Shown here: positions 444 through 58,219 of the stretch, one piece after another
Numbering within the stretch: position 1 is the first letter of the stretch
Layout of the letters: the number at the start of each line of letters is the position of its first letter
Assembly (NCBI RefSeq): GCF_963576615.1
Contig: NC_088708.1
Span: forward strand, 26,109,191-26,173,190
Origin: Watersipora subatra
Taxonomy: Eukaryota; Bryozoa; Gymnolaemata; Cheilostomatida; Watersiporidae
DNA: 64,000 bases
Reading direction: 5' to 3'
Made by a program: the position numbers and the translations under genes
Notes under the pieces: generated by a model
Seen by the model: only the letters and a program-made list of their open reading frames with translations
Told to the model about the DNA's origin: nothing
Database searches by the model: none

Positions 444-1154
444 CTATTTTAAATAGTAAAATTCAGTTGCGCAACATAGAAATCGTATTAAAAAATCCAA
501 TATGGCTATGTATTTCAATAAAAGAGCTCGTAAACTAACAGTCTCATTGGTTGCTTGTTTTATTTCTTTTTGTAATCTGTTCATCTTTGCTGAATCATAT
601 ATAAATTGATAACGTACCTGGTTTGCCAATCTTTCCTGGATTACTTGATCAAGTTTGTAGTCACGGTGGCGATTGGTTGTCTGTAGAATGACTGGCATGA
701 GCAAATGTTGAATAGGAACATACAGTTCATCTGGTCTGATAGGATAGTTGAATACAGCTGAATGACCTTTTAGATGAAGAGAATTGATTTTGAAGTCCTG
801 CTCGTTGATGTTTATTTCAAGAACTGATCCAACATAGCAATCGTTGTCATATTTGTAGGCCAGTATATCACCCGGCTTAACGGTAGTCATATCTAAATGA
901 ACTTGCGGTGGCACAGTGTTTGCTCTGGCTGCAACATTACAGCATGAACGCGGGTACTGAACTGTGATAGAGACATCGCCACCTGATGTCCGACAGCCAA
1001 TATGGCTAGCAGCACTTGCTTCAAAACAATGATGACTCTGCAAACCAGCCACAGGAATGGCAAAGTCTATGGTTTTTTTCTCTCGAAGTGTGCGGTATTT
1101 AGCGATGTCCACATTATCATACCATAAAATTAGTACAGACATTATATTCTCCAT
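444..1154 (-). CDS. Unrecognised protein, 236 codons, with a possible C-terminal SH3/Tudor-like module
   Basis: The longest uninterrupted frame in the first 3 kb runs from ATG at 1154 to TAG at 444-446. Residues about 90-155 contain KPGDILAYKYDNDCYVGSVL, then an aromatic/proline stretch and DELYVPIQHLLMPV. This arrangement (GD-x-hydrophobic, YVG, later a V-x-x-x-x-L patch) resembles small beta-barrel modules at the ends of transposon-derived and chromatin proteins, but that is inference from pattern only. The final 30 residues are hydrophobic (IAILDFLIRFLCCATEFYYLK). No signal peptide is evident, and no intron or promoter could be fixed. It could be one exon of a longer gene or a remnant of a mobile element. 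Confidence 0.4.
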   Translation of the reverse strand: MENIMSVLILWYDNVDIAKYRTLREKKTIDFAIPVAGLQSHHCFEASAASHIGCRTSGGDVSITVQYPRSCCNVAARANTVPPQVHLDMTTVKPGDILAYKYDNDCYVGSVLEININEQDFKINSLHLKGHSAVFNYPIRPDELYVPIQHLLMPVILQTTNRHRDYKLDQVIQERLANQVRYQFIYDSAKMNRLQKEIKQATNETVSLRALLLKYIAILDFLIRFLCCATEFYYLK

Positions 1155-2285
1155 GAAGTAACTATAGAGTTTTTAGGTTTTAAGATGAAGTCAGCAAAAG
1201 TGCGTTGCAGACTAGTTCTACGGGCCTGATACTTTACAACAGCCCCTATGCCGTCACATGCAGACTTGCAATGAGATGTTGAGCAATTACTGTTCAGTAA
1301 TTGCTCAACATCTCCTAGTATAAAAGGGAATATTCAGGTATTTAAATATTGCATCGAGAAAAAATAATATGCATCTATTACAGTCGACAAATATTTTCAT
1401 TCATCGTCACCTTACCTTTCATAACTCAAAGAAGATCAAAGGCGAAATTCATGTAAAGTCGACTAAAATCTCGGTGCGACATTTGCTAGAAGATAAAATA
1501 GATATTCATAGATTTTTGCATACGCTACACAAGTCATGAAAAGTTTAAATTGTGTCTGGAGATACTAACCACCCTTTTGATTGCAGCTATGGCATTATAT
1601 CCAATAGCATCAGCTAGACTGATAATATTTTCAAATTCCTTTCAAATATTTGCGTTGTATCAGTGGCCTATCTACTGCTTCTACTGCCTTACAGCTTTAA
1701 ATTTCAATTTCCTGCAATAACATAGCTATCGATCAATTAAACAAGGTAGGAAAATTATTAATGTAAGAATCCTCATGCAATTATACTAGAGTTGTCATCT
1801 CCTATGATCTAAAACTATAACACTGAACCACGCGTGGTACAGTGGCTGTTCAAGTACAACTGATCATTCACAGCAATTGAATGCATAATATTCTATGTTT
1901 TCACTAACAACAACTCTGAATAGTGACAGCTGCATAATTAATAATGCTGGTCAAAGGGTTGCAATGATTGAAACTTATAGACCAAGTCCATCTAGTCTAA
2001 TGATAATACATTGAGATATAACCGGAGATCGCTGCTTTGAGAGACTCATGTGTAGAATCTAAAAGTAACACTTCATGAATTGCTGATGAGTATCGGAACT
2101 CTTACTATTACAATAACGAAATAAATTAAAAACCATTTGCTAATTGTTTCTACTATTGTCTATTAATTCTGCTTATACTTTCTACTACTTCTACTACCTG
2201 TCTATTGAAGTAACAATGACACAGCGAAGTGAGGCATTGGTACACATGAATAGCTTTGCTCTGAATGTCTTGGAATGAGTCATGC
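1155..2285. other. No gene recognised; contains one perfect hairpin and one dispersed repeat
   Basis: No coding frame of note. A 42-bp palindrome lies at 1273-1314 (listed separately). About 65 bp at 1738-1804 recur in inverse orientation at roughly 38571-38640, sharing ACTAGAGTTGTCATCTCCTA and an upstream ACAAGGT-GGAAA block. Confidence 0.5.
1273..1314. repeat. Perfect 20-bp inverted repeat with a 2-base loop
   Basis: Arm one is GAGATGTTGAGCAATTACTG (1273-1292). Its exact reverse complement is at 1295-1314, separated by TT. It lies in non-coding DNA upstream of the 444-1154 frame. It could fold as a hairpin RNA or a cruciform, or be the fold-back remnant of a MITE. Confidence 0.85.
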
Positions 2286-2289
2286 ACAC

Positions 2290-3339
2290 TCTAGGTGGTG
2301 CTAGTGTCTTTTGTGAGCTCCCTTTTGTCGCTTATCTGTGCTATTTCAAACTCTCAACATAATTTGAAAGATCTTATGCTAACCGTGTAAATCTCACTCA
2401 AGAGTCAAGTCCTACAGCACGTGTTTCCTGAAGCGTCAATTCTTTGTTTTCTTTCTTTATCATTCATACAAGGAACCTAAAGGGTGACCAGAAAATTTTC
2501 CATGATAAAGTCAATACTAGCGTGCAGCTTTTTTCAAGGTGTCGAGATTTACAGCTAGCAATTGCCTTTGCACGTAGACTCTTTCAGTAATTTTCTAGAA
2601 GTACAGGAGAGCGCAAAAAAGGAGCAGTATGAGGAGAGGTTGTCAATCTTGCAGAATATTTTAAGATAGAACACAACACAAAATGCTACCACAACTTCTT
2701 GTGCTAAATAACGCCTTAACTTAAATAGAATGTACTCTGTATAATAAGTTATGTGATATCATACATGTACATATTCTATCTGGCTAAAGTTATTGTAATT
2801 CCACATACAATAGGTGTACGATAAATAAAATAATGAGTGATATCATAGTAGGCACTATCACAGTTGATAAGCACCAATCTATAAAGCTCATTTCTTACAT
2901 AAATCAGATTTCCCTACGAAGAGATCAACTCCACACAATCGATGCACACCCTTTGCTGTACAAAAGCTACACGTAAGAATCATCACACTTCTATAGACAG
3001 ATATGCAGCATAATTTATACCCCCACCCCCTAATGACACTTTACCAACCAAATGAAACATCTAATCAGAAGCTTTTTATGAAATAACAGTTGGTGGAATC
3101 TATTCATTCAAAATCTGTACATTGGAAATCATTACATTCATTTTTGCATGGGATAATTACATAGGCACACTAGAAACAATGGCTAATGCAATGGTACAAG
3201 CTACACAGTGTGGCCTTTTGTGTAACAATGTGAAGGAGGTTGTTGTGTACTTTTAAATTTTCAAATGTATTTCTGCACAACAATCAAAAGATAGACCTAG
3301 GCAAAGCAACCATTTGGATTTGGAGCCTGCACTTACAAA
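2290..3339 (+). promoter_or_regulatory. Upstream region of gene A, similar to the upstream region of its inverted paralogue
   Basis: This non-coding block matches the reverse complement of about 31380-32510 along most of its length. Shared strings include GAGCTCCCTTTT versus GGGCTCCCTTTT, the TATCTGTGCTATTT / TTTAAACTCT area, CACCTATTGTA versus CACATACAATAGGTGTAC, TTTTGCATGGGATAATTACA, and TTTTAAATGTATTTCT just before the start codon. It therefore duplicated together with the gene and holds the 5' flank of both copies. No TATA box or transcription start could be assigned. Confidence 0.5.
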
Positions 3340-5006
3340 ATGGCGATTAAAGAGAGTTTAGTAGTGTGTGGATTTATTTTAGTTGTTCACATATTTATTA
3401 TTAACATTGCTTACAACAATGATCAGATATTCAAGCTGGTAGAAGGGACGGGGGGCATCGTCGGAAAAATGCTCATGCTGAAGCTGTTTTTTTACCTGCT
3501 AACAGGGTAAGTATTAAGATGATAGTAATAGTGATCCTAAAAGATAAAACTAACATAAATTCCTTGCTGAGAACACCGCTACATAAATATATGGATTGAG
3601 TTATTTCAAATACATAGGGATCATGTAGCACTAGTATATGAGAAGATATCAACTTGAAAGTCTATGAAGGCAGTCAGCGACTTAACACTATAACATTGTA
3701 TAGCTTACATAGTTATCCTAAAATTATAATATACAATCTTACCTTAATTTTAGAGACATACATAACAAAGGAAAAAGTATTAAGAAAAGTTGCGGTAAGA
3801 AGAATAGGAAAAAGAGAAAAGGTGGTGAGTATTTTAAGCTACTTGTACTAAAAATTCAAAAGTAGCTCAAATTAAAGTTAAGAAACGGAGAAATGAAACG
3901 CTATTGAGACCTCAAATGATAAATGATATTATTGACTCAAAGGCTAATAGTAATTTTTCATAAGATTTTATGAATCTTATATATGCTTTTATTAAAATAC
4001 ATGCAACTACTACAGAGCATTTGATCAAATAATTCGCAACTTCTGATTTTAAACAGGGAAGAGAACAAGGACAGGGATGGAAAAGCATCATGGGACAAAG
4101 GAAAAGTTACTTAGAAGGAAACTGCAAGTGAGGAATGATGATACAACAGAAGTTTCAATGACAAAAGAAAAGATGATGCGAGAACTGAAAAGGGAAATAG
4201 TGAAAAAGGACGATGAAAAGGGTGTGGGAAAAACATCTCGGGAAGAACTAAAAGAAGAAACGTTGTCATGTAGCAGTAGAGAAAGCACAGGAGGTGCAGC
4301 TAGTGAGTATGAAGGGTATATTGACGATGCGGAAAGTGTTGAGAAAGAGAGAATTGACATAATGATGAGGAATGATGAGATGCAGATGAGGAACGATGAT
4401 GTAAAAGAAGTTTCAGTGACAAAAGAAAAGATGATGCGAGAACTGAAAAGGAGAATAGTGAGAAAGGACGATGGAGCATATGATGGTAAACCAACCCGAC
4501 AAGAACTAAAAGAAAAAACGTTGTCATGTAACAGTACAGAAAGCACAGAAGGTGCAGCCAGTGAGTATGAAGGGTATATTGACGATACGAAAAGTGTTGA
4601 GAAAGAGAGAATTGACATAATGATGAGGAATGGTGAGATGCAGATGAGGAACGATGATGTAAGAGAAGTTTCAGAGACAAAAGAAAAGATGATGGGAGAA
4701 CTGAAAAGGGAAATAGCGAGAAAGGACGATGAAGAGTGTGTGGGAAAAACAACCTGGAAAGAACTAAAAGAAGAAACGTTGTCATGTAGCAGTAGAGAAA
4801 GCACAGAAGGTGCAGCCAGTGAGTATGAAGGGTATAGTGACGATACGAATAGTGTTGAGAAAGAGAGAATTGAGTGCTGTGGATTTCCAGAGACATACAT
4901 GAAAGAACTAACCCTTGCAATTGCAAAAATTAACAAAAACAATGACACTCCTATTTATTCACAAATTTTGCAAGCTATAAAGCTGCATAAGCAGTATGAA
5001 TTGTAA
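3340..5006 (+). CDS. Gene A: unrecognised three-exon gene, predicted 395-residue protein with hydrophobic N-terminus and charged tandem repeats
   Basis: Exons are 3340-3506, 3754-3824 and 4057-5006. Donors are GTAAGT (3507) and GTGAGT (3825). Acceptors are TTTTAG (3753) and AAACAG (4056). Lengths 167+71+950 = 1188 nt stay in frame through both junctions to TAA at 5004-5006. Exon 1 (about 56 residues) begins MAIKESLVVCGFILVVHIFI, a likely signal anchor or signal peptide, and ends with a second hydrophobic patch (KLFFYLLTG). Exon 2 is strongly basic (KKNRKKRK), NLS-like or a cytosolic positive flank. Exon 3 carries three 86-residue Glu/Lys/Asp-rich repeats, probably helical, and a distinct C-terminus starting FPETYMKELTLAIAKINKNN. 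I recognise no family. Paralogous exons at 22.3, 28.7-31.4 and 57.5 kb keep the same splice sites, which supports the model. The start was chosen because MAIKE/MAVKE/MSVKE recurs at the equivalent position in the paralogues. Confidence 0.65.
4131..4876 (+). repeat. Three in-frame 258-bp tandem repeats within gene A exon 3
   Basis: Units start at AGGAA(T/C)GATGAT at 4131, 4389 and 4647, an exact spacing of 258 bp (86 codons). Each unit reads RNDD, EVS-x-TKEKMM-x-ELKR, KDD, ELKE-x-TLSC, EST-x-GAASEYEGY and SVEKERI. The third unit runs into the unique C-terminal segment. High conservation between units indicates recent duplication or homogenisation. The reverse strand is also open across this interval, which is a side effect of composition. 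Confidence 0.9.
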
Positions 5007-5764: not shown

Positions 5765-7060
5765 TCAATCCTGCCTTTGTAGAGGCGTTTTGTTAGAAGT
5801 GACGTTCAAATAAATGGCGTTGTATTTTTCAATTGGCTCGTCAGCATTGTGAATAATTAACTTTAACCCTTTTACGGGCAAAGCAAATGACACCCATATT
5901 TTGCATTCTTTTTTGAGTCCAAACTCTTCCGGGTGCAATAAACCTACTATAAATCTATTACTTACTACCAACTTGTTGTAGATCACTAAATAAACTTGCA
6001 TTGGGAATCGGAACGATATCTCTATCAGTTAGTATCTATTGCTTGCAAATAACCTATAATTATCTTTTAGTCTGTGCTAAAATTTGTTGGGGCTTTCAAT
6101 TTTTTATTTAGCTCTAAATTTGAAAGCATGTTTTTATTTTACAACTATATTTAACAAAATTGCAACAAAGTTCATTGCACTCATTGATATGTTTGCTACA
6201 GTTTGCAGCTAAAACTGGATTTTTATGTGCAATAACTTACAGTTTATTTAATACTAATCTATCAAATGCAAATCAATATCAAATCTATTCTAAAAATAGA
6301 TATTCAAGAACAAGTAACAAACAAATCCTAATTATAATACATGCCGTAACAATAGTTAGCATTTTTGAAACAGAATTTTTCCATGCCATTTGCTCAGCAG
6401 GTTGCATTCACATTGTTGCTTTCGTAAGAGATCATATTATTTTTTTCTGGCTGTTCAATACCTTCCACCGTGTTCGCTAACCTCAACTCTTTTTCTGCAC
6501 TGCTGAACAAGTTTATATTAAGGTTCAATCTATGTTTTAGTGGAGCAAAACTTTTACGCATTGTTATTCAAAAAACTTGCGAAAATAATAATAAATTTTA
6601 CCCACACGCATACTTAGCACAATAAATAATCTGAAAATAGTAGTAAAGATTCCATCATAATTGTACACCTATTTTTATATACACCGAAGTATCAAGACTG
6701 CGTTAAACAAGGAACTATTATTAGCCTGATACAGTTATTGATTACTTTTTACGGAGTTGGTTTCAAAGTTAAAAGAAAACATAAGCTTTGGAGTTTGAAA
6801 GTAAACTTCGATATGAACAGCAACCACGAAAGACTTAACTGTTATTGATATCACTGGGTAATTATTAGTACTATTTAGTGAACACTTCTACTGATCACTT
6901 TCTATTAAGGGTTCATAAAGATCAAGGAATGTCAAAGTGGCGGTCAACTAGAGGTGGCATTCTATTTTTCAACCCCTCTCCTATTATAGTGACGTTCAAA
7001 TAAAGGTTGCGTCGAAATAGAGGTTTTACGGTTGTCACATAGCCTCAGCACTCACTTTTT
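5765..7060. mobile_element. Degenerate pogo-like non-autonomous element or mosaic
   Basis: Both margins carry motifs of the kind found at pogo termini: GTGACGTTCAAATAAA-GGCGTTGTATTTTTCAA near 5800-5850, and GTGGCATTCTATTTTTCAA with GTGACGTTCAAATAAAGG near 6950-7010. The interior (about 6040-6400) matches 26660-26965 in the same orientation (for example TATATTTAACAA-TTGCA, CATTGCACTCAT, GCAGC-AAAACTGG), next to the pogo transposase pseudogene at 27 kb. No coding frame of its own survives. Confidence 0.4.
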
Positions 7061-7069
7061 AATGGAGCA

Positions 7070-7560
7070 AAGCATACAGTTGCTCAGCCTCTTCTTCCTT
7101 AGATGGAAAGAAACAACATAAAGGTAAAGTGTGAGGCTAGTACCTTAGTTGCCATATTACTACTAGTAAACTAGTTCTACAAGGTCAATACAGAAAGCAA
7201 GGTGAACTTTTCAACTAGAGAACTACATAAACTTTCTTGTCTCTGTTTGTGAATATCTCCTTTCATCGTTTGTAACTGTATAAAAGACAATTTTCTGGTA
7301 AGATAATAATTTATTATGTGATATTACAGGCCAATGATATATTTGGGTAAAATCTTCTACAGTTAAACCTCTCCAAGAATACGAGTACAACAATCTTACC
7401 ATTTAAGTTAATGGTTGCCGGTAGAATATAGATGTTATTAAATTCACATATGCTAGTATATGTAATATCTATACGGATAAGCCACGCGAATCCGACAATC
7501 ACTCCGAAAGTATGACGAATATTCAAACTACTTACATTACAACAGTACAACACCATGCAG
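7070..7560. repeat. Inverted copy of the sequence flanking the 27-kb pogo pseudogene
   Basis: Reverse-complementing this block gives about 27850-28265: TTGTCTTTTATACAGTTACAAA, GATATT-ACAAACAGAGACA-GAAAG, and GTAATATGGCAACTAAGGTA are shared. The 27-kb copy lies directly upstream of the transposase start, so this is probably the 5' portion of a related pogo element without its coding region. Confidence 0.6.
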
Positions 7561-9745: not shown

Positions 9746-9963
9746 AAATTCGGTTATGTTATGATAAGGAAAATGCAAGTTTGGGGTTCTTCTTGACACC
9801 CCTAATATAAGCAATAAATTGCATGTGAATTTTGGAACCTTTACCAAAGTCTCACAAGATCCCTCATTTTGCAAGATCCCAACGGTCCACTGAGAATAAA
9901 GAACGTTAGTTGCTAGTAATATACTTGTAGTAAATTCTAAGTGAATGAGCTTAGACTGATTTT

Positions 9964-15043: not shown

Positions 15044-15277
15044 TGTTAACTTTGTTTATTTAGAGTAATATATTCTGAGTATGATAATAACACAACGTGT
15101 CTCATGGAGGAACAACGAGCAACTAACAAAAAAAACATGGCCGCAACGAACAAAACATGGCCGCTACGAACAAAAACATGCCCGCTACAAAAAACAGATT
15201 GTCTTCCCTTAAGCAAAGGGGAATAAACTCCCATACAAAAACAAAAACCCAAAACTACATGTACACAATATCCTACA
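15044..15277 (-). repeat. 3' LTR of copia element 1
   Basis: Long terminal repeat, TGTTAACTTTG ... CAATATCCTACA in plus-strand reading. The repeated CATGGCCGC-AC-AAAC trinucleotide-rich centre is shared with the partner at 19304-19538. Confidence 0.95.
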
Positions 15278-15288
15278 CACCCCCTTAG
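15278..15288 (-). promoter_or_regulatory. Polypurine tract of copia element 1
   Basis: Minus-strand sequence CTAAGGGGGTG immediately precedes the 3' LTR, the expected place for plus-strand DNA priming. Confidence 0.7.
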
Positions 15289-22289: not shown

Positions 22290-22610
22290 ATTAATGTTCA
22301 ATGATTTCACTACTATCACTTGTCCTTATTTCTTCTTTCATCACATTTCAGTTTTGTTTTCATCTCACACTCCATCATCTTCTTTTCCTATTTTCCTTTT
22401 CAGTTTTTGCGTCGTCTTTTTCCACTCCGGGTTCGTTTTCTTCTCGCACTCTCCATCGTTCTTTCTTGCTAATTTGCTTTTCAGTTGCTGAGTTGCCTTT
22501 TCTTTTGACGTTGGGTTTGTTTTCATCTTGCACTCTGCAATGTTTTTTTTGCTGAACTCCTAAGTAAGTTTGTATCATCATTCCCAGGGAACTTATCATC
22601 AAACCCTACC
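22290..22610 (-). pseudogene. Fragment of the charged-repeat exon of the gene A family
   Basis: The minus strand has an open frame reading KRKGNSATEKQISKKERWRV, then REENEPGVEKDDAKTEKENR. At nucleotide level, ACTGAAAAG-A-ATTAG-AAGAAA-ACGATGGAG matches the gene A repeat (4440-4475), and GGAATGATGATACAA matches 4132-4146. A second, closer match is to copy B near 29000 (GGAGTGTGAGATGAAAACAA versus GAGAGTGTGAAATGAAAACA). No hydrophobic or basic exon was found next to it. It is probably a dispersed, decayed exon 3. Confidence 0.5.
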
Positions 22611-27790: not shown

Positions 27791-27849
27791 TCGTATTAGT
27801 GATACTATTTTGAAGCGGTCTGTCTATTTATCATACTTTGGGAGTGATT

Positions 27850-28265
27850 GTTGACTTATTATCTGTGTAGATATTACATATACTAGCGTATGTGCATTTA
27901 ATATGACAGCTATAACCTACAGGCAAATATTCACTTGAATGGTAAGAGTGTTGTACTGGTATTCAATGGCCAGTGAAATATTTTACCCAATTATATCATT
28001 GGCCTGTTATATCACATAATAGATGATTATCCTACCAAAACATTGTCTTTTATACAGTTACAAAAAGTAAAAGGGGATATTGACAAACAGAGACAGGAAA
28101 GTTTATGAAGTTTTCTAGTTGAGGAGTTAATTTGGCTTTCCGTATTGACCTTGTAGAGCTAGTTTGCTAGTAGTAATATGGCAACTAAGGTACTAGCCTC
28201 ACTTTTTACCTTTATGCTATTTTTTTCCATCTAAGGAATAAGGGGCTGAGCCACTGACCGCTTTG
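27850..28265 (-). repeat. 5' flank of the pogo pseudogene, inverted copy at 7070-7560
   Basis: Shares long blocks with 7070-7560 (see that entry). No coding content. Confidence 0.6.
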
Positions 28266-28269
28266 CTTT

Positions 28270-28710
28270 ATTAGAAAGTCAGTACTAAGGCAATGTGACT
28301 ATGTAAAAGTTTTCTAAATTAATTGAAAGCTTATTGTTCCATGTGTTTCCTGACAGTTCATATTTCATGCATTCCTTAATTTATTCATGTACAAGGCTGT
28401 TGGGTGTTTTGTTTTTCTTTAATTACCAATTTATCTGCATTTATCTTCATTCTTAAAGTAAACTACAATATGTAGATACACTTTACATGCATGCACTGTA
28501 AATTGTAACAAGATGTCTATTGTTATCACACATTTATTAAGGCACCGTACTTACTGTGATGCCATGTTTTTATAGACCACTGAAATTATCTTGTTTGTTA
28601 CAACAGCAGCTTTCATAAAGAAGGTTCATTTTAATTTGTTTACATGTCTTATCTAGATCCTTATAATTCCTGCAAGGTTTGAGTTGAAAAAACACTAAAG
28701 TAAAATATAC
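28270..28710. other. No gene recognised
   Basis: AT-rich; 3' flank of copy B of the gene A family. Confidence 0.4.
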
Positions 28711-29142
28711 TTACAGTTTATAATGCTTTTGCAGCTTGATAGCTTGCAAAGTTTGTAAATAATATGGAGCATTATTGTCGTTGTTAACCTTTGCTATTGC
28801 AAGTGTTAGCTGTCTCATGTAGGTTTCTGGAAAGTCACATCACTCTTTTCCGTCTTCATCCTTTCTCCCTTTTTTACCACGCTCAAAACCTTTCGCATCT
28901 CCAATCTATTCCTGATGCTCAGTGTCTGCTCTTTCTGCGGTTTCAGTACTATGGCATGTCCAAATTTCTTCTGTTTTTTCCTGGGTTGTTTTCATTTCAC
29001 ACTCTCCATGGTATTTTCAGCTGTTGCGCCTTTTTTTTCAACATCGAATCTTCTGTAGCATTATTGTTCCAGATATGTAATTTTCCTTTAGGCCATATTT
29101 CTTTTGTCACATAATGCTTTTTGGTCACTGCATTTGTTCTCC
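28711..29142 (-). pseudogene. Copy B exon 3 (charged region and conserved C-terminus)
   Basis: Acceptor AAATAG then GGAGAACAAATG, aligned with gene A AAACAG then GGAAGAGAACAAGG. AAAAGCATTATGTGACAAA matches gene A AAAAGCATCATGGGACAAAG. After about 45 codons the frame hits a stop. The conserved end ATCAAGCTGCAAAAGCATTA with stop TAA at 28711-28713 is in a frame cut off by TGA just before CDFPETY. Only one diverged repeat unit is present, against three in gene A. Confidence 0.6.
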
Positions 29143-29514
29143 CTATTTAAAAATTGGAAGCATCTTGGTCTCAAATCACCCGATCAAATGCTTCTTGCGC
29201 TAGTTGCATGCATCATAACAAAGCCATATATGTATAAGATTCATATAATCTTGCAATAAAAAAGCTACTATTGGCTTGTAATTTTGATTTTAAATTTTAG
29301 TTTTCAGCTCAGCTAGCTCGAAATACTCACCTATTCACCCTATTTTTTATCCTTCTTGTCGTAGTTGGATTTTTGTATGCTTGATCACTCTAACTGCTAC
29401 ATGATGTCTATTTATTTGAAATAATTCTGTCCTTATATTTATGTAGCAATGTTTCTGCAAGGATTTTATGTTAGTTTTATTTTCTAGGATCACTACTATC
29501 ATATTAACACTTAC

Positions 29515-29666
29515 CCTGTTAACAGGTAAAAGAGAAAGTTTATTATCAAGATCTTTCTGACAATGTCACTCACATCTTCTGACAGCTTGAATATGTGAAC
29601 ATTGTTCACCGCACTACCAATCAATAAAATGATTCCAAATACTACTAGCATTTCTTTAACAGACAT
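29515..29666 (-). CDS. Intact exon 1 paralogue in copy B
   Basis: 152 nt, ATG at 29666, donor GTAAGT right after TTAACAGG. It encodes 50 whole codons: MSVKEMLVVFGIILLIGSAV, NNVHIFKLSEDVSDIVRKIL, then a hydrophobic end FLFYLLTG. Length modulo 3 equals that of gene A exon 1 (167 nt), so the splice phase is kept. It has its own copy of the 5' flank (GAGGTTGTTGTGTA-TTTTTAAA, 29690-29790). This is the best-preserved first exon of the cluster and could be transcribed. Confidence 0.55.
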
Positions 29667-29875
29667 GTTGCATGTGCAGACGCTAAATCAAAATGATTGC
29701 TTTGCTTCAATCCTTTGATTGTTATGCAAGAATACATTTAAAAATTTAAAAATACACAACAACCTCACCTGCATAGGGATAAGAAAGGCATCACTATTGC
29801 AGCTTGCATCAAGGATTTTATGTTAGTTTTATCTTTTAGGATCACTCTTACTATTACTATCATCTTAATACTCAC

Positions 29876-29990
29876 CCTGTTAGCAGGTAATAAAACAGCT
29901 TCATCATGAACATTTTCCCGACGATGTCCCCCGTCCTCTCTACCAGTTTGAATATATGAATATTGTTGTAAACAATGTTAATAACAAAGA
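29876..29990 (-). pseudogene. Headless exon 1 paralogue in copy B
   Basis: Reads VYNNIHIFKLVERTGDIVGK, then MFMMKLFYYLLTG and donor GTGAGT. The N-terminal hydrophobic half is replaced by the 3' end of an intron-1-like sequence, so no start codon is present. Confidence 0.55.
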
Positions 29991-30205
29991 TAACTATGTA
30001 AGCTATACAAGGTTATAGTGTTAAGTCGCTGACTGCCTTCATAGACTTTCAAGTTGATATCTTCTCATATACTAGTGCTACATGATGTCTATGTATTTGA
30101 AATAACTCTATCCATATATTTATGTAGCGGTGTTCTCAGCAAGAGTTTTATGTTAGTTTTATCTTTTAGGATCACTCTTACTATTACTATCATCTTAATA
30201 CTTAC

Positions 30206-30340
30206 CCAGTTTAAGCAGGTAGTAAAACAGCTTCATCATGAGCATTTTCCCGACGATGTCTCCCGTCCTCTCTAACAGCTTGAATATGTAAACATTGTTC
30301 AGCGCACTAGTAAACACTAAAATAACTCCAAATAGCATTT
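30206..30340 (-). pseudogene. Exon 1 paralogue fused to post-exon-2 sequence
   Basis: Reads HEMLFGVILVFTSALNNVYI, FKLLERTGDIVGKMLMMKLF, then YYLL and a GTAAGT donor. Its upstream part is the intron sequence found after exon 2 in gene A (AAGAAACGGAGA-ATGAAA-GCTAT), which marks a recombination joint. Confidence 0.5.
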
Positions 30341-30411
30341 CATGTCTCCGTTTCTTCACTTTAATTTGGACTAGATTTGAATTTTTAGTACAAATAGCTT
30401 AAAATACTCAC

Positions 30412-30479
30412 CACTTTTTCTCTTCTTCCCATTTTTGCCATATCTATTCTCAATACCTTTTCCTTTGTTAGGTAACTCT
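30412..30479 (-). CDS. Exon 2 paralogue (basic exon) in copy B
   Basis: 68 nt between TTTTAG and GTGAGT, the same phase as the 71-nt exon of gene A. Reads ELPNKGKGIENRYGKNGKKR followed by KS. The conserved features are Asn-Lys near the start and the terminal basic cluster. Confidence 0.6.
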
Positions 30480-30733
30480 CTAAAATTATGGTAAGATGGT
30501 ATATTGTAATATTAGGATAACTATGTAAACTAGCTATACAATGTTATAGCTGAAGGTTGCTGACTGCCTTCATAGACCTTCAAGTTAATATCTTTTCATA
30601 TGTTAGTGCTACTTGATGCCTATGTATTTGAAATAACTCTATCCATATGTTTATGTAGCGGCATTCTTTACAAGGATTTTATGTTAGTTTTATCTTCTAC
30701 ATGTAGTATCACTACTATCATGTTAACACTCAC

Positions 30734-30886
30734 CCTGTTAACAGGTCAAAGATGAACTTCATCATCAAATTTTTCATCCCAATGTCGCACGCATTTTTTA
30801 ACAGCTCGAATAAATAAATGTTGTTCAGCACAATTCCTATCACTAAAAAAACTTCCAAATACTTCTAACTTTTCTTTAACTGCCAT
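30734..30886 (-). pseudogene. Exon 1 paralogue with frameshift
   Basis: ATG at 30886 starts MAVKEKLEVFGSFF. A one-base shift then separates it from GIVLNNIYLFELLKNACDIG and FDLLTG before donor GTGAGT. Confidence 0.5.
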
Positions 30887-30997
30887 GCTGCAAGCCCTAA
30901 ATCAAAATGGTTCCTATGCCTAGGCTCCTTTGACAATGTCACTCACATTTTCAGAATTTCAGAAAAATTCCAAACACTGCTAGTATATCTTTAACTG

Positions 30998-31237
30998 CTA
31001 TACTGCAAGCTCTAAATCAAAATGAAAATAATGAAAAAATGAAATCATGATTTTCATCATGGAAATCATTGTGACAATGTCGCACATATTCTCCGACAGC
31101 TTGAATATGTTACAATTCTTTTTTCCATTTTTCTTACCGTATCCATTCTTGATACCTCTTTTTTTGTTAGGTAACTCTCTAAAATTAAGGTATGATTGTA
31201 TACTATACATTATACATAAAGCCTCTTTAACCGCCAT
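30998..31237 (-). CDS. Chimeric 79-codon frame made of exon 1 start, exon 2 and exon 1 middle
   Basis: Begins MAVKEALCIMYSIQSYLNF, where exon 1 passes directly into intron-1 sequence, then RELPNKKRGIKNGYGKKNGK (exon 2), then CNIFKLSENMCDIV (exon 1 middle), and ends in the 5' flank of the next copy. It is open throughout, but assembled by recombination from exon and intron pieces. Whether it is expressed is unknown. Confidence 0.4.
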   Translation of the reverse strand: MAVKEALCIMYSIQSYLNFRELPNKKRGIKNGYGKKNGKKNCNIFKLSENMCDIVTMISMMKIMISFFHYFHFDLELAV

Positions 31238-31299
31238 CTTGCTCTTGCTACTTCTAAATCAAAGTCGTTCCTTTGCCTCTATTTTTTGATTGTGTGCAG

Positions 31300-31377
31300 A
31301 AATATGTAATCGTTTCTCATTGCACTGTCAATCGCCAAAATAATTACGAAGATGACTAAAATCTCTTTGATCGCCAT
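31300..31377 (-). pseudogene. Most upstream exon 1 paralogue of copy B, truncated
   Basis: ATG at 31377: MAIKEILVIFVIILAIDSAM, RNDYIF, then the sequence passes into the 5' flank of the next unit (CTGCACACAATCAAAAAATAG). It sits directly below the conserved 1-kb upstream region, so it is positionally equivalent to gene A exon 1. Confidence 0.55.
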
Positions 31378-31379
31378 AT

Positions 31380-32510
31380 TGCTCGTTCAGCTACGGAATC
31401 AAATTGGTTTCTTGCCAAGGTGTATCCTTTGATATTTATCTAGAAATACATTTAAAATTTTTAAAAGTACATGTATGCAACAACCTCACTTACATTGACG
31501 AAAGATCAGAAACCAAGCACAAAAGAACACCCTTGCGTAGCTTGTGCCATTACATGAGCCATTGTTTCAAGCATGGCTGTGTAATTATCCCATGCAAAAA
31601 TTCAGGTGAAATTTTTCAAGCAAAGACATCAAGTTTTTCTGAATGCATGCCCTGCATGTTTTTTGCTCAATACCATGATTAAACATAACCTAGAAAAATG
31701 CATGTAATGGTATCCAGTAAACAGTTTTGGAATATAATCCACGAACTTTTATTGCATATGAAGCTCTTGATTGGATGTTTAATTTGGTAGTTGAAGTGTC
31801 ATTACGGAGGGTATAAACTATGTATATCTATTTTTAAAAACATTGAATAATGCCTGTAGCCTTGGTGTAGCGAGATGGTTTGCATCATCTGTATGGAGTT
31901 GTTCTCTCCTTATGAAAGTCCAATTTTTGTAAGAAATAAACCTAATCGATTGGTGCTTATTAACTGTGATGGTGCCCACAGTAATATCACCTATTAGTGT
32001 CTTTACTGTACACCTATTGTATAGGGCTGTACAAAAACTCCATTTAGTAGGACTTTGTACATATATGATGTCATATAACTTATACAGAGTACATTATGTA
32101 GTGTTATTTACCAATTGAAGTTGTGGCAATTGGATTGGCCATATTGTGTTGTGTTGTAACTTATAATATTCTGCGAGATTGACATTCCCTCTTCGTCCTG
32201 CTCCCTTTTTCCTTCCACTTCCTGAGATTTTTAGAACTTTTTTAAAATAGTCTACTTGTAGCGACAATTGTTAAATGTGAATCCCTCGACCTTGAAGAAG
32301 CCACACTGATAATGAATTTATCATGATGAAATTTCCAGCTACCCTAAGGTTTCATGTATGGATGATAAAAAAGAAGACAAAGAACTGACACTTCAGGAAG
32401 CACATGCTAGATGACTTAGTGAGATTCACACCGTTAGTATACAAACTTTCTATTGATGTCAAGAGTTTAAAATAGCACAGATCTGTAAAAAAGGGAGCCC
32501 ACAAAAGGCA
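31380..32510 (-). promoter_or_regulatory. Upstream region of copy B, counterpart of 2290-3339
   Basis: The reverse complement matches the gene A upstream block over about 1 kb (see that entry), including AATTTGACCTAA-free stretches such as AAAAATTTTAAATGTATTTC and TTTTGCATGGGATAATTACA. A 92-codon plus frame here (31404-31682) is incidental. Confidence 0.5.
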
Positions 32511-32877
32511 GTCGCGCCCCTGAGAGAGTGCATTACTTTAAGACATTCAAAGCAAGACTACTCCGGGATATTAATGCCCCACTTTACTACAACCTCAGAA
32601 AACTTGCACAGATCTGGAGTGAGGCCAGCCTAAAGCAGTAAGGAAAGCTGGATGCAAACGGACATCTCCAAATAAAGTTTCAGCATTCAGTTCTTTCTGA
32701 ACAACCAAGTACAGTGAAATTTTTATCATAACTTTTATTCTTGCAGAAGACCCGAACATTAATTTTCATGTATGTATGGAAAACAGACAATAACGGAAAT
32801 AAATATCAGCGATAAGCCACAACGACAAAAAGTAAAAGATTACAAGGACACTATGAACATTTATTAAATTTCATTAG
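32511..32877. other. No gene recognised
   Basis: Contains AATAAAGTTTCAGCATTCAG near 32674, resembling a 3' end or LTR polyadenylation area, without other support. Confidence 0.3.
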
Positions 32878-33092
32878 TGTTATGTAGTGAGTTTCAATGT
32901 ATAAGTTTATTGTACGTCTGGTCAGGTCAGGTATCAAATCTAGACTGGTTGGCAAAGGATATAGCAAAACAATGTCAGGACAACATAGTAAAAATACAAA
33001 CAGCTGCTGAGTGTGGTATCTGATTCACACATAATGGCTAACCATTAACCTAACTGCATACATGTATATCATTGAGCTAACTTATTATGACA
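32878..33092 (-). repeat. 3' LTR of the 33-37 kb Gypsy element
   Basis: Pairs with 37384-37601. Confidence 0.93.
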
Positions 33093-33383
33093 TCTCGTCT
33101 TTTCCTAAGTGAATATAAGAGTTCATACTAAAACAAAATCAGGCTATTGGCATATAAAGGTATATAACAATAAAAAAAACAACTCATCTGACAAAAGTAG
33201 AATAAATTGGTAATAGAAATGAAGTATACATGTAATACAAAGATTTGATATTACACGTAAACAGCATAAGGGACTAAACTATTCCAAGAATGCAAAAGCC
33301 AAACTGAAAACTCAATTTTTATCATAGATATTTTGACCAAAACGTTCCGGTGGCTTTGACCTCCTACCTGTCCTTGTTGACAT

Positions 33384-33786
33384 TCACAAGCCAGACGACC
33401 TACCGCGCCCTTCCGTCACCCCAGCTTCGGCCGACACCGGTGGATTAACCGGCTCAGCATTACTCGTGTTAGAACCCGTTAGTGGTGTCGCTGGTGGTAG
33501 GGTGTTTTGTACAATTAGATGGTTCAAAGGCTTGCACTGCTCAACTATAGTTTTTCTAACCCTCAGATACAACTGGTTCCTACGGAGTGTTCGACCATCG
33601 CCTAGCTCTACGAAGTAACTGTAGGGGGGGGTGGTTTTCCGCATGTTGCACGATTTTGCCATCTACCCAGGTTCTGTGACCCAGTTTAACCCGCACTTCC
33701 ATTCCTGTTATGTAGCTGTTTGGCAGCTTTTTGGAATTGCCATTGAACTTAACCTCTCTCTGTTGTTTCTCAAGTGCTGCTCTCAC
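33384..33786 (-). pseudogene. Gypsy integrase C-terminal domain and tail, frameshifted
   Basis: 33786-33580 reads YITGMEVRVKLGHRTWVDGK. 33662-33384 reads YSYFVELGDGRTLRRNQLYL and continues in a Pro/Thr-rich tail. The two frames overlap at an eight-base G run (plus strand, about 33625-33632), where a one-base slip would account for the break. Confidence 0.75.
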
Positions 33787-34185
33787 ATTCTGCTGGCTAA
33801 CATATTATGGCTCAAGTTGCTTTGGCGTAAAATGTAATGCTGATCTGAGTTTTTGGCCTTGCAGCAAAACCGAAGGTGATGGAAATCCATTGCCAATTGG
33901 TGTAGCTCTAATGGTGCTGATAACATCGTGTAGAGTTTGCCCTGACTGTTTTGTCTTCGTTAGGCAATTCTTGACAGTTTGATTTAGACGCTCAGCCAGT
34001 CCATTTGATCAGGAATAAAGTGGGCTGACAGTTACATGATTCATATCAAGTGATTGAGTGAAATTTCTGAACTCGTGAGATGTGAAGTATGAAGCATTGT
34101 CAGACATAAGTGTTTCCGGTCGTCCAAAGTCTAGAAATTGTTGCTTTAGTAGCTCTATGAGTTACCTAGATGTTGAACTTTTGAG

Positions 34186-34908
34186 CTAATAGCACATTGG
34201 CCATTTCGAGTATCTATCTATTGTAGTCAGATATTCAATTCCTTCAAGCTGAAAAATATCCATGCTCACAGTTTGCATGGGATATTCTGGTATGTTGTAA
34301 GGCTCTAACACAGTTTTATTGTTATCTTTAGCGTTCTGCTGACTCTTTTCGCATGTTTCTATAAGGTCAGTAATTTGACTTGTATAACTGGGCCAATAAA
34401 CTGAATCCTTAGCGTGTTCAATGCATTTGTTGACACCTAAGTGCCCTTTGTGTATGTCATTCATAATGGTTTTACACAGTGTTATAGGTACCACCAGTAG
34501 ATTGTTTTTCTGTACGATGTCATCATGAGTGCTCAAGTCATGCCTCACATTCCAAAATGGTTTCACTGGCTCCAAGAAAAATCTCTTTTGCTCAGGCCAC
34601 CCACTGAGAATGTATGTTTTCAAAGCCTCAATTGTGGGGTCATCAATGAAAGCATGAGTAAACCTCTCTCTCACTGTTGTATTTGGAAGGATTCCAGTTG
34701 TGACAGCGCAGACTTGGTCATTATCTCCGCTTGCGTATTCTAAACTAGCTCTGCATTGGTCTCCTAGATGAGCGCGGCTCAATGTGTCTGCTATATACAA
34801 CTGGCTGCCTCGTTTATGAATTAAGTCATAGTCGTAAAGTTGAGTCCTGAGTCTCATTCTTTGCAATTTAGGTGTGAGGTCATTCAAACCTTTCTTATGA
34901 ATGCCCAA
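34186..34908 (-). pseudogene. Gypsy RNase H end and integrase N-terminal part
   Basis: 240 codons. YDYDLIHKRGSQLYIADTLS closes RNase H. HKGHLGVNKCIEHAKDSVYW starts the integrase zinc module; the last Cys pair reads CEKSQQN, so one zinc ligand is Ser. MDIFQLEGIEYLTTIDRYSK contains the first catalytic Asp. The frame stops shortly after. Confidence 0.85.
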
Positions 34909-34970
34909 CAGAGGTAAATGATCAGTCTCTACTACAAGCTTTTGGCCATATATATACTGGTGGAATCTAG

Positions 34971-35456
34971 TCAGAGACCATACTGAGTAGCTAGAAATTC
35001 TTTTTCTATCTGTGCGTATGACCTTTGAGCCCTACTCAAACTGCAAATAGCAAATTCTACTGGTTTTCCTTTTTGCAGAAGGGCAGCTCCTAGGCCATTC
35101 TGTGAACTATCTACACTTAGAGTTACTGGCAAATTTGAATCAAACATTTTGAGCAAAGGAGTGCTAGTGAGTGACGACATTAGGAGCTTAAGGAAAATGT
35201 TATGCTCATCATTCCAAGACCAGACAGCATCTTTTTTTGTTAACTCTCTAAGGGGAACATTAACCTCGTCTAGTCTGGGACAAAATTGGCTAAGATATGT
35301 TGCCATACCTAACAACCTACGCAGCTCTTCAACATTCTGTGGAACTGGCATATCTGATATGGCCTTTATCTTGTTGGGGTCAAGCTTTATCACACCTTGG
35401 CCAATGATGTGGCATAAGTATTTGAGCTCTGGTTGCTCGAAATGACATTTAGCCAT
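34971..35456 (-). pseudogene. Gypsy reverse transcriptase thumb and RNase H start
   Basis: 161 codons: KCHFEQPELKYLCHIIGQGV, LRRLLGMATYLSQFCPRLDE, SVDSSQNGLGAALLQKGKP with the RNase H Asp, RSYAQIEKEFLA with the Glu. It is separated from the palm region by a stop near 35490. Confidence 0.85.
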
Positions 35457-35495
35457 ATTCAGCCTAAGATTGACCTGTCTACAACGTTCTAGAAC

Positions 35496-35876
35496 TTAAC
35501 GCAAAATAGCATCATGCTCTACCTTAGTCGATGCGTGAACCAGTATATCGTCTACAAAAGTTTCAACAAATTCCAGGTCAACAAAAATTTCACTAACCGT
35601 ACGACGAAATACTTCTGGTGCAGAGCTAACACCATATGGAAGTCTGAGAAATCTATAGGGGCCAAAAGGTGTTGCAAATGTGGTCAACATACTCCTTTCA
35701 TTATCAAGCTCTAGTTGCAAAAACCCCTGAGTTACATCTAATGAAGAAAACACCCGAGATTTTGATAGCTTAGAAAAAATTTCTGTAGTCTTAGGCAGAG
35801 CAAAGTGCTCCCTTTTAATGCACCGGTTCAGCTCAGTGGGGTCTAAACAGACACATATCGACCCGTCAGGCTTCAA
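35496..35876 (-). pseudogene. Gypsy reverse transcriptase palm and fingers
   Basis: 126 codons: DGSICVCLDPTELNRCIKRE, SLDVTQGFLQLELDNE, FGPYRFLRLPYGVSSAPEVF, ETFVDDILVH with the catalytic Asp pair. All key residues are present in this fragment. Confidence 0.88.
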
Positions 35877-35967
35877 AACATTGACGATCGGATCAATCAG
35901 TTGGAATTTTCACTTTGGCTATCATGCCCTTAGATTCCATCAAGTCCAGAGTGCTTTTCAGCTCATC

Positions 35968-36726
35968 TCATAGTCTAAATGGCACACGTCTGGCACTCTG
36001 CACAACTGGTTTGCTGCTGTCTTTCAGTGCTAAAGCATGTTTGCTAGGTAGCTTGCCTAAACACTCAAAAACATCAGTGAATTCTGAAATAGCTACATTA
36101 GGTGATGCACTATTGCTACATGCAGTTTCAACAATACCCATTGATGGACAGCTTGGTAGTCCAAGCAATGTTGTCTCCCCCTGCTCTACTCTACTGCCCA
36201 TAATAAAATCATGGACAGAAAAGTCAAGCTTGCGTTCTAAGGTGAGAGCCAATTTTTCTAAAACAGTTGGCGGGTGACCACCAAAGGACAATAATGATTG
36301 TTTGTGTTTCTGTAGTTTGGCATTGTCCAATGCTAAACTGTCAAAAACTCTTTTAGGCATCACATTGCAACTAGCCCCTGTGTCTACTTTTAGTTTTAGT
36401 TTCTTGCCTTCACAGTTTACACTAATATACCATTCCTTACTGTTGGATGACTGACCATGCACTGCTTTTATATTGTCCACTTCCTCTGTGTTGACTTCCT
36501 GGGCTTGGCTGTTGCTGTAAATTGTTTTCTCTTTGGCCTTGCAGACTCTCTGGAAATGTCCCTTTTGTCCGCAGTTTTTACACACCTGGTTAAATACTGG
36601 ACACTTTCTTGGTTGATGTGAGCCTCCACAATACTTGCAGTGGTTGATGGTTCTAATTTGCTGCAGCCTGTTGACATGCATAGATTGCTGTTGTTGGTTC
36701 GATCGTCTTGTATTCACAGCATTCAT
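35968..36726 (-). pseudogene. Gypsy nucleocapsid, protease and reverse transcriptase start
   Basis: 252 codons. Two CCHC knuckles, CKYCGGSHQPRKC and CKNCGQKGHFQRVC, near residues 30 and 50. Protease LKVDTGASCNVMP near 115. It ends PVVQSARRVPFRL, the usual entry to reverse transcriptase. It is not in the frame of the gag part. Confidence 0.88.
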
Positions 36727-36797
36727 TGTTGCTTTTGAATCTTGTTAGCTGATCAGTTGAGGTCCAGCATATATTGCCGTGTCGCTTCAAACCTCTG

Positions 36798-37319
36798 TCA
36801 CACTTCTATGCAATTGTCAATTGTTAGCGTCTCAGAAACATGAAATAATTCCTCTCTTACTGCTTTTGACTGGATTCCAAACACTATTCTGTCCCTCAAT
36901 GCCTTATCCTTCTCTCCTTCATGAAAGTTGCTTGTTGAAATTAGACTTCTAAGTGAAGATAAAAACTTGTCGAAGGATTCACTAGGTTGCTGAACTCTGC
37001 TGTAAAATTTGTAGCGCTCAAACTCCTCCTTGCCCTTCGGCGCAAAATATTTCCTGAAGGCCGCCTTCACTGGGCCAATCTTCCTGTCCTCATCTGTCAA
37101 ATTGAATGTTCTAAAAAGCTCTTGCCCTTGTGCCCTGAGCACAGTAAGCAAAACGGCTACCTGGATACCCTCATCTTTGGTATCCTTCTCGGTGGCTGTC
37201 ACGTATAAATCAAACTGCTCAATCCATGCCATCAAGTCTATGCTGATTTCGCTAGGGTTCCGGGCAAAACAGTCGGCTAGAAAGTTACTTGGCGCCTTCA
37301 AAGAGCGACCATCCGCCAT
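36798..37319 (-). pseudogene. Gypsy Gag capsid part
   Basis: 173 codons from ATG 37319, 55 nt inside the primer site: MADGRSLKAPSNFLADCFAR, FDLYVTATEKD, KAAFRKYFAPKGKEEFERYK, PSESFDKFLSSLRSL. Typical Gypsy capsid spacing. It is followed by stops before the zinc knuckles. Confidence 0.8.
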
Positions 37320-37373
37320 ATCTTAGAATAATTCGCAAATGCTGTGTCTAGATACTATACAAGAGCGAAGGCA

Positions 37374-37383
37374 CCTGACACCA
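37374..37383 (-). promoter_or_regulatory. Primer binding site of the 33-37 kb Gypsy, tRNA-Leu type
   Basis: Minus-strand TGGTGTCAGG directly after the 5' LTR. It matches the complement of the 3' end of many tRNA-Leu (CCTGACACCA). Assignment is from recall of tRNA ends. Confidence 0.65.
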
Positions 37384-37601
37384 TGTTATGTAGTGAATTT
37401 CAATGTGTAAGTTTATTGTACGTCTGGTCAGGTCAGCTATCATATCTAGACTGGTTGGCAAAGGATATAGCAAAACAACGTCAGGACAACTTAGTAATAA
37501 AAACAAACAGCTGCTGAGTGTGGTAAGATGATTCACACATAATGGCTAACCATTGACCTAACTGCATACATGTATATCATTGAGCTAACTATGTTATGAC
37601 A
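37384..37601 (-). repeat. 5' LTR of the 33-37 kb Gypsy element
   Basis: Pairs with 32878-33092; flanked on the outside by ATTAG. Confidence 0.93.
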
Positions 37602-37691
37602 ATTAGTAACTGTCATGTTTTTTATATTAAATAGCTTTTATATTATGTATTTTTGCGAAACGATATGGAAACTTGTGACTAGTCCTGCTGC

Positions 37692-38186
37692 TTACATTTT
37701 GCAACCAATCAAAGGGCCAAACCTCAAACTTCTGGAAAACAATTGGGCGGATGCTGATCTCATCAATAAAAGAATATAAACCACAGAGTTTGAGACATTC
37801 AGCAGAATGTGCACTGCCTTGAGTATCAGTGACACAGTATCAACCCTAGCCTTGAGTATCGGTGACACAGTATCAATCCTTGCTTTGAATATCGGTGACA
37901 CAGTATCAACCCTTGCCTTGAGTATTGGTGACACAGTATCAACCCTTGCTTTGAATATCGGTGACACAGTATCAACCCTTGCCTTTAGTATTGGTGACAC
38001 AGTATCAACCTTAGCCTTGAATATCAGTAACACAGCATCAACCCTAGACCTGAGATTTTGCTGGCTAATGTTACATTCACTTTTGAGTGGGGAGCTGTCG
38101 ACCTGGAATCCTAACTTCAGTAATGCCTTTAGTAACTGTGTTTTTTCCAGTTTTGACTTGCATGCTTGCAGTGAATAAAATTGCAC
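37692..38186. other. Minisatellite-bearing locus open on both strands; coding status unknown
   Basis: Plus strand 37807-38178 is open for 123 codons from ATG (unit TLALNIGDTVS). Minus strand 38186-37692 is open for 164 codons from ATG (unit ILKARVDTVSP). Neither resembles a known family. A 33-bp period keeps both strands free of stops, so either frame may be incidental. ATAAAAGAATATAAA at about 37767, before the plus ATG, resembles a TATA region. Confidence 0.35.
37817..38047. repeat. 33-bp minisatellite, seven units with alternating types
   Basis: Units of CCTTGAGTAT-GGTGACACAG plus TATCAACCCTTG repeat exactly every 33 bp. Odd and even units alternate between GAGTAT and GAATAT, which suggests a 66-bp higher-order unit. 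Confidence 0.9.
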
Positions 38187-38189
38187 TCA

Positions 38190-39460
38190 CGTAAGCATAA
38201 GTACAATAAGTACGAGTGGTAGTTTGATTGATTTCATGTATACACGTATAGACTTCATATCGTAATTTGATGTAATTATAATTGATTTGATTTTTGATCG
38301 ACCTTTGTATAATATATATACACGCTACCCCTGCAAACGCTGTCTACACACTTGGAGGTCGAAATTAAAGTCTGTGAACCAACTTTTTTTCATCGCTTGA
38401 AAACCACATTGGATCATTTTAAGAAATTTAATTTAATAGACATCAATTAGGTTTTTATTATGATTAATGAAAACTTCATAAAATGGATATCTACATATAT
38501 AAAGTGCAAAATGGGAAGTACTTCATAAAATAATAGCTAAAAATAGCGAATGGTTTTAATTGATTTTATTAGGAGATGACAACTCTAGTATACTCACATG
38601 TGCATGCCTACATTTATAAATTTCCCACCTTGTTTTATTGTCAAATAACTATTTTGTTGCATGAAATAGAAATTTAAAGTTGTAAGACAGTGCAATCAGT
38701 GGATTAGCCATCGTTATGAAGCAGATATTTAAAAAAAGTATTAAAATATTTCAGCGTGGCGGATCTTGTTGATCATACTTGGACATGTAGTTGCTATCAA
38801 AATGTTAGTTAATATTTCCAGGTAAAATTTAGATTTTTTCACCAGAACTGTAACTTGAGCTTGCAGTTAAACAACTTTGCATGAATTCCACACCTGATTT
38901 TGATTGAGCCATAAAAGGTTAGGTGTCTGTGAATGAGATGGATTTCCAGCTGGTATACTTATAACAACATTACTTTTTTTTGAGTCAATAGTTAAATATC
39001 CAAATGTTTCAAATAGCCCAAATATGTACTGTATTGTTCTAAAACTACATTTTAATAATTATTTCGTGAACATGAAATGATCATCTTAAGTCATGTATAA
39101 TGATCAGGGAGGTCATGTGGAGACAATCAAAGTGATGATGAGTCTTGCACAAGCCAACATCCAATATGGCATACTAATAAGGTGGAAGAGGGTAGCTGAA
39201 AAACAGATAACTGAGGATATATAATAAACCCTAATAATCCTGTCCATCAGTAATAGGAGCTAGTAATTAACATTTTAGTGTTTATTACAGTAATAAGTAC
39301 TAATGCTATGATAAACTAATAATAGTTATATATACGTGTATCTTGAATATACTTATATACAAATAAATATGTCATATAACCTCCTGGCCTTTAGCTTGGT
39401 AGACCAACAGGCTAACACCTGCACCAATTCATCACATTCTGATGTTTTAGAATAATTGTA
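38190..39460. other. No gene recognised
   Basis: AT-rich. TATAATATATATACACGC (about 38306) followed by AATTAAAGTCTGTGAACC could be an LTR promoter/poly(A) region, unsupported by a partner copy. Confidence 0.35.
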
Positions 39461-44090: not shown

Positions 44091-44094
44091 TCCC

Positions 44095-57439: not shown

Positions 57440-57655
57440 AAATTAACTGTTTGAGGTCTCAATAGCATTTCATATTTCCGTTTCTTCACTTTAATTTTAA
57501 CCAAATTTTGAATTTTCAGTTTAATTACAAGTAGCTTAAAGTACTCCCACTTTTTCTCTTTTTCCCACTTTTCTTGCCGTATCCATTATTGATATTTTTG
57601 CTTTTGTTAGGTAACTCTCTAAAATTATAAGATTGTATATTGTAATCCCATGACT
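57440..57655 (-). pseudogene. Orphan exon 2 of the gene A family with its intron flanks
   Basis: On the minus strand AATTTTAG is followed by ELPNKSKNINNGYGKKSGKK and RKSG. The donor position reads GGGAGT instead of GTGAGT, so splicing there is doubtful. Flanks match gene A introns (ATTACAATATACAATCTTA before; TTTAAGCTACTTGTA and AAGAAACGGA-ATATGAAA-GCTATTGAGACCTC after). No exon 1 or 3 nearby. It sits exactly at the end of the Gypsy remnant and the start of R copy 4. Confidence 0.65.
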
Positions 57656-58210: not shown

Positions 58211-58219
58211 ATTATAAGC

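Follow-up and report, generated by a model that had tools for sequence, protein, structure and literature searches.

Gene A, at positions 3340-5006 (+) of the window analysed here, very probably belongs to a real gene family, because three near-full-length relatives, T1, T2 and T3, lie about 2.6 Mb away in the same assembly. Apparently this is a small, lineage-restricted family of protein-coding genes, a fuller statement to which we give about even weight. The window is a stretch of 64,000 nucleotides (C1:26109191-26173190; mean GC content about 37%) from an assembly of 783.7 Mb in 239 contigs. Features of A and of its relic copies in the window, in which the letters B to F denote relics of exon 1, are collected in Table 1.

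The three exons of A (3340-3506, 3754-3824 and 4057-5006) are all bounded by GT/AG sites and, as the preliminary description had reported, join in phase 2 and then phase 1 into a frame of 395 codons and a stop when the long form of exon 2 is used. The end of exon 2 as first read is doubtful, in that its donor at 3825 is missing from the three relatives, whereas the donor at 3795, 30 nt upstream and in the same phase, is kept in all four full-length genes. Exon 2 of A is probably shorter than it had seemed, and the protein predicted through the 3795 donor has 385 aa. Use of both donors in A is possible, because that at 3825 exists there and has also been kept in relic B. With an exon 2 of 41 nt, the same exon structure and phases and all four splice sites are found at 4 of 4 full-length loci. 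The peptide KKNRKKRKG, the most basic part of the linker first proposed, lies between the alternative donors and may be intronic; the segment that follows it is also basic. Once the relatives showed their donor at 3795, it became doubtful that exon 2 is a strongly basic module. The third exon, described at first only as a charged-repeat exon, contains 2.9 copies of a 258-bp unit that are 89% alike. A search for promoter words found no TATAA or TATATA in 2900-3340, and a search for polyadenylation words placed the first AATAAA downstream of A at 5809 and an ATTAAA at 5682; both searches were uninformative.

Table 1. Positions in the window of gene A, of the segments it shares with other copies and of the relics.
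Feature	Position	Strand	Remarks
Low-divergence tract	3153..3752	+	5-7% from T genes, surroundings 23-25%; left edge 3123, 3143 or 3153 depending on partner
Exon 1	3340..3506	+	start codon; hydrophobic residues 6-24; weaker hydrophobic 40-58; phase-2 end
Intron 1	3507..3753	+	GTAAGT ... TTTTAG, 247 bp
Exon 2, short form	3754..3794	+	41 nt; donor CG/GTAAGA (cut at the slash) common to 4/4 full-length genes
Exon 2, possible extension	3795..3824	+	encodes KKNRKKRKG; donor GTGAGT at 3825; absent from T1-T3, present in relic B
Exon 3	4057..5006	+	basic head, 2.9 charged 86-aa repeats, conserved 44-aa C-terminus, stop
258-bp tandem repeat	4129..4873	+	3 units in A; 5, 6 and 7 in T1, T2 and T3
C-terminal 44 aa	4872..5003	+	best conserved part of exon 3 across the four genes
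Duplicated segment	1329..7533	+	matches 39008-27813, inverted, with gaps (old segmental duplication)
Decayed inverted copy	27813..39008	-	homology broken at ~32.6-38.5 kb, where a Ty3/gypsy element sits
Relic F, exon 1	31300..31377	-	truncated
Exon 2 relic beside F	31117..31207	-	
Relic B, exon 1	30734..30886	-	1-bp frameshift
Exon 2 relic after B	30407..30478	-	3-bp deletion; 3795-type donor lost, 3825-type kept
Relic C, exon 1	30206..30338	-	in-frame ATG to donor; 2-bp insertion beside donor shifts phase
Relic D, exon 1	29875..30006	-	no start; resembles tandem duplicate of a 3391-3717-like segment
Relic E, exon 1	29515..29666	-	open, phase-2 donor
Exon 3 relic	28711..29140	-	in-frame stops; C-terminus still recognisable
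Exon 2 relic	57546..57617	-	neither downstream donor intact; isolated fragment
Repeat-region fragment	22329..22526	-	stops; isolated

A DNA search of the genome gave seven matches outside the window, and these formed one cluster of three loci at C1:23.466-23.495 Mb, 2.6 Mb from A, where T1, T2 and T3 stand in tandem at intervals of 12-14 kb. Their DNA identity to the repeat exon of A is 87-90%, and all three keep exon 1, both introns, the repeat exon and the C-terminus. T1 (565 aa, five repeats) and T3 (737 aa, seven repeats) are open from ATG to stop; T2 runs for 558 codons to a premature stop and has a frameshift in its sixth repeat. Amino-acid identity of exon 1 between A and the three relatives is 89-93%. 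A protein search of the 784-Mb genome with exon 1 found at least seven places, all on one contig, made up of the four genes and three of the window relics, a count that is a lower bound as relics B and F were missed. The gene-bearing stretches of the T loci are 92-96% alike and are interleaved with arrays of a 36-bp minisatellite at 85-90%. This minisatellite, in long arrays between the T genes at C1:23.471-23.499 Mb (L009-L012), is also found in the window at 49632-49784.

The tandem array and A are linked by a tract of about 600 bp that takes in exon 1, intron 1 and the sequence just upstream and stops at exon 2, and over which A is far closer to the T genes than it is on either side. The contrast has z values of 8.5-9.5, compared with a maximum of 4.8 in 1000 permutations per pair, a procedure that registers only the clustering of differences and in which strong constraint would give an equal signal. 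Conversion is preferred over constraint on two grounds: the likeness in exon 1 is matched both in intron 1 and in the 100 bp upstream, and the tract has sharp edges. Interlocus gene conversion between A and the T array, over a distance of 2.6 Mb, is the probable explanation of these alignments.

Comparison of the four genes suggests, if modestly, purifying selection on the coding sequence of the family. The coding stretches compared, 282 nt in each of six pairs, take in exons 1 and 2 and the initial 74 nt of exon 3; none of the six pairs has a gap there, against 2, 3, 1, 7, 8 and 8 gaps in the introns. An in-frame indel of 21 nt lies in the exon 3 head just past the compared stretch, and one of 3 nt, also in frame, occurs near the C-terminus among the four genes. 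Between T1 and T2 there are 5/282 substitutions in coding sequence versus 24/523 in introns (Fisher p=0.047); the same contrast is not significant in the other five of the six pairs (p 0.097, 1, 0.26, 0.29 and 0.26). Exons 1 and 2 together differ at 1/208 positions in T1-T2 and in T1-T3, and at 2/208 in T2-T3. At the C-terminus A and T1 are separated by 5.0 synonymous changes over 26.3 sites and 7.0 nonsynonymous changes over 105.7 sites, and the divergence of the C-terminus of A from the relic (27/132) is no lower than that of the 3' flank (8/43). The repeats evolve nearly neutrally, with frame and splice sites kept: omega for the units is 0.71, the gain in log-likelihood over omega=1 (kappa=2) is only 1.4, and nonsynonymous changes are not depleted among the repeats within A (26 observed versus 23.6 expected). 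The description of the family as fast-evolving thus fits the repeats and exon 2 of A, which differs from each T gene at 17/41 sites (intron 2, 67-70 of 253-254), but does not fit exons 1 and 2 of the tandem genes.

Such an exon 2, next to a tract that differs by about 5%, is what might be expected if A were recently or soon dead, a mosaic remnant open by chance and through recent 5' conversion, with the functional members in the array. Unit dN/dS values of 0.8, 1.5 and 1.6 within A point the same way, and the adjoining inverted copy consists entirely of relics and T2 is frameshifted, so the family does decay. We nevertheless regard the death of A as unlikely. The frame of A stays open for its full 385/395 codons and none of its splice sites is lost, and relative to the T genes its 282 coding nucleotides contain no gaps versus 7-8 in the introns. 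About six new stops would be expected in A under 13% neutral drift, an assumed figure of roughly half the upstream divergence between the halves of the inverted duplication (259/1067), and none is present; judged within A alone, however, an absence of stops is nothing out of the ordinary (P=0.27).

As the preliminary description had supposed, the protein resembles no known family: no part of it matched a Pfam family above the cut-off, and there was no PDB sequence match at E<0.1 and no Rfam match. Phage records, IMG/VR (one IMG/VR search using exon 1 alone) and GTDB contigs (exon 3 alone) likewise gave no accepted match, and from these searches the family is provisionally an orphan. Two sub-threshold similarities, to DUF641 (Pfam, E=0.0056, below the cut-off) and to DrmA (PDB, E=0.27), were read as chance. 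A literature search, weak in that it was not directed at the species, found no description of such a protein. Kyte-Doolittle hydropathy averages 2.57 over residues 6-24 and 1.45 over residues 40-58; the former corresponds to a hydrophobic N-terminal helix of about 19 residues and agrees with the membrane-anchored or secreted protein first envisaged. Two AlphaFold runs yielded no confident fold, with a pLDDT of 56.7, and of 47.0 for the tail alignment. Helices were predicted in exon 3, and the helical repeat domain that had been proposed is borne out as a low-confidence prediction.

Function and topology can be proposed on this basis, the topology from hydropathy alone. Exon 1 would insert the protein into a membrane, either as a signal-anchor or as a signal followed by a weak second segment. 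A basic segment past a membrane stretch favours the cytosolic side (the positive-inside rule), and the basic stretch that exon 2 encodes together with the head of exon 3 (KRTRTGMEKHHGTKEKLLRRKL in A, KRKRTGMRKHHGRRKMLLRRKL in T1 and T3) would lie on the cytosolic face. If the basic run and all that follows it are cytosolic, a membrane-tethered rod or scaffold would be the simplest mechanism, and we put it forward tentatively, with somewhat less than even confidence. The charged repeats would then form long, weakly constrained helices that extend into the cytosol and act as spacer or scaffold, with the conserved 44-aa C-terminus as the most likely binding end. Copies may spread by tandem and inverted segmental duplication, swap sequence by gene conversion, and decay. 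A more elaborate version, in which the number of repeats (3-7) sets the reach of the rod and conversion keeps the membrane end alike while the repeats drift, the whole acting as a lineage-specific tether or self/non-self marker, is decidedly improbable.

The N-terminal hydrophobic stretch would equally suit a secreted or surface protein with a reproductive, immune or matrix role, in which exon 1 is a cleaved signal peptide, the repeats are extracellular and their number, which varies between copies (3, 5, 6 and 7), is a functional variable. Signal cleavage follows small residues at positions -3 and -1, and relics E and C, which have G-S-A and T-S-A before the residue preceding a conserved NN, fit this rule, whereas A has N-A and not a small -3/-1 pair. 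The uncharged run is of similar length in A (16) and in E (15), so length alone is no argument against a signal peptide. However, A and the T genes hold 15 bases at this place that are absent from relics B, C and E, and the basic segment downstream of the weaker hydrophobic stretch points, under the positive-inside rule, to a tail in the cytosol; we think secretion rather unlikely.

The other exons in the window had been taken for a live, multiplying family; they are instead mostly the remains of a decayed inverted duplicate, and the open relatives lie in the array 2.6 Mb away. The match chain of the duplication runs through flanks, introns and exons, and the inverted copy contains five exon-1 relics, two exon-2 relics, one exon-3 relic and no working gene. 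With regard to the paralogous exons said to share the splice phases of A, relic E is indeed open with a phase-2 donor, but B, C, D and F are broken and no exon 2 was found between relic E and the exon 3 relic. The pieces at 57.5, 28.7 and 22.3 kb are not intact paralogues: the first has neither downstream donor intact, the second contains stops and the third is a piece of the repeat region, likewise with stops. Among the least diverged blocks of the duplication is one, 7024-7533 versus 28308-27813 (83/494 sites differ), that has no evident gene and adjoins transposase remains (Pfam HTH_Tnp_Tc5, BrkDBD).

Over the 107 nt of exon 1 compared, divergence exceeds that of intron 1 in all 10 pairs among A to E (Fisher p<0.05 in eight), pairs that share sequences and are not independent. 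For exon 2 versus intron 2 the result is mixed, with 14/70 versus 15/90 between A and B, and 17/72 versus 10/88 between A and the 57.5-kb piece. Omega for the relic exon-1 set, resting on five short mosaic sequences, is 0.475 (log-likelihood -428.9 free, -431.5 at omega=1, kappa=2), and a deficit of amino-acid changes reaches p<0.05 in 1 of 10 pairs. An accelerated or segment-switching exon 1 was rejected, as synonymous sites are raised too, exon 2 is mixed and the tandem genes are without the pattern. Our reading is that exon-1 divergence in the relics would reflect relic decay and conversion and not diversifying selection.

The window is full of what we take to be Ty1/copia, Ty3/gypsy and Tc5/Tigger-type remains, some of them named by the appearance of their translations. 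Direct repeats at 15041-15278 and 19301-19539, 97.9% identical, flank a Ty1/copia element with long frames of 579 and 730 aa, and this copy is probably young. A Ty3/gypsy element is flanked by direct repeats at 32878-33092 and 37384-37601 that are 93.6% alike; because it occupies the gap in the homology of the inverted copy, its insertion is probably younger than the duplication. A further repeat of about 570-630 bp has three copies (9963-10565, 44085-44715 and 57640-58212), one of which adjoins the exon 2 relic, the junction lying at 57646 to within a few bases. For an open frame of 242 codons at 447-1172 (minus strand) no Pfam family could be accepted, the best being BRO1 with a sub-threshold E=0.018.

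In these surroundings, and with fragments of the family dispersed over the window, A might itself be taken for a transposable element or some other dispersed repeat. This is very improbable, since no part of the protein matches a Pfam transposase, reverse transcriptase or integrase, and the exon-1 places, at least seven genome-wide, lie on one contig without genome-wide dispersal (the counts being lower bounds) and include four full genes. The copies are explained by segmental duplications, with homology through flanks and introns. The Ty3/gypsy, Ty1/copia and Tc5/Tigger-type elements are neighbours of A but separate units, with no Pfam domain in common.

The repeat exon of A is open for 317 codons from stop to stop, compared with a longest open stretch of 136 codons in 2000 first-order Markov sequences of matching composition. 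Three-base periodicity was found in exon 1, repeat unit 1 and the long form of exon 2 (fraction of background at or above the observed value 0.005, 0.023 and 0.046, respectively), but not in the C-terminus (0.49). Openness of the repeats alone proves little, because long open stretches occur on the other strand as well. Antisense frames of the repeat exon extend for 288 aa in A (window 4088-4954, minus), 467 aa in T1 (L009 3018-4421, plus) and 545 aa in T2 (L010 5279-6916, plus). In codon models of 19 distinct units the sense frame had a log-likelihood of -945.96 and omega of 0.71, and the sole fully open antisense frame -958.31 and 0.83, a rough comparison in that the frames differ by one codon. 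That the open repeat frame is a by-product of purine-rich composition, with no protein or with antisense coding, is hardly credible despite these antisense frames, as the sense frame is superior in likelihood, has the lower omega and is carried on into exons 1 and 2 across conserved splice sites in all four genes. Among 5000 random 258-nt units of matching composition, moreover, just 0.28% were open in some plus-strand frame.

Three-finger toxin genes are reported to be duplicated three-exon genes with exchange of exon segments, termed ASSET (PMC2474615, PMC2711939). The A family also has three exons, two introns and mosaic copies, and among its relics too every pair is more similar in intron 1 than in exon 1. 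Unlike ASSET as reported, the pattern is confined to relics: exons 1 and 2 of the tandem T genes are not more diverged than their introns, and accelerated exons of the ASSET type are not seen among T1-T3. The comparison of A with the T genes fits a converted tract instead, and in that comparison exon 2 alone is more diverged than the intron after it. A has no Pfam match to any toxin family.

What we describe has the appearance of an orphan gene family, not of a novel type of system. Among the taxonomically restricted (orphan) genes of animals, one of Hydra is tied to tentacle formation, its expression being reported to go with a trait (PMC2586386). The likeness lies in the want of recognisable relatives in the libraries searched and in the lineage restriction reported for the Hydra gene; the two differ in that the Hydra gene is reported to be tied to a trait by its expression and the A family is known from its sequence.

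Orphan families are common, and the A family is unsurprising as such. Its value is as a compact case of the life and death of orphan genes, which brings together a tandem array whose members vary in their number of repeats, an inverted duplicate that is older and full of relics, and a sharp tract, probably converted, that links loci separated by 2.6 Mb. Should the idea of a length-variable tether be right, the number of repeats would be a measurable variable between individuals.
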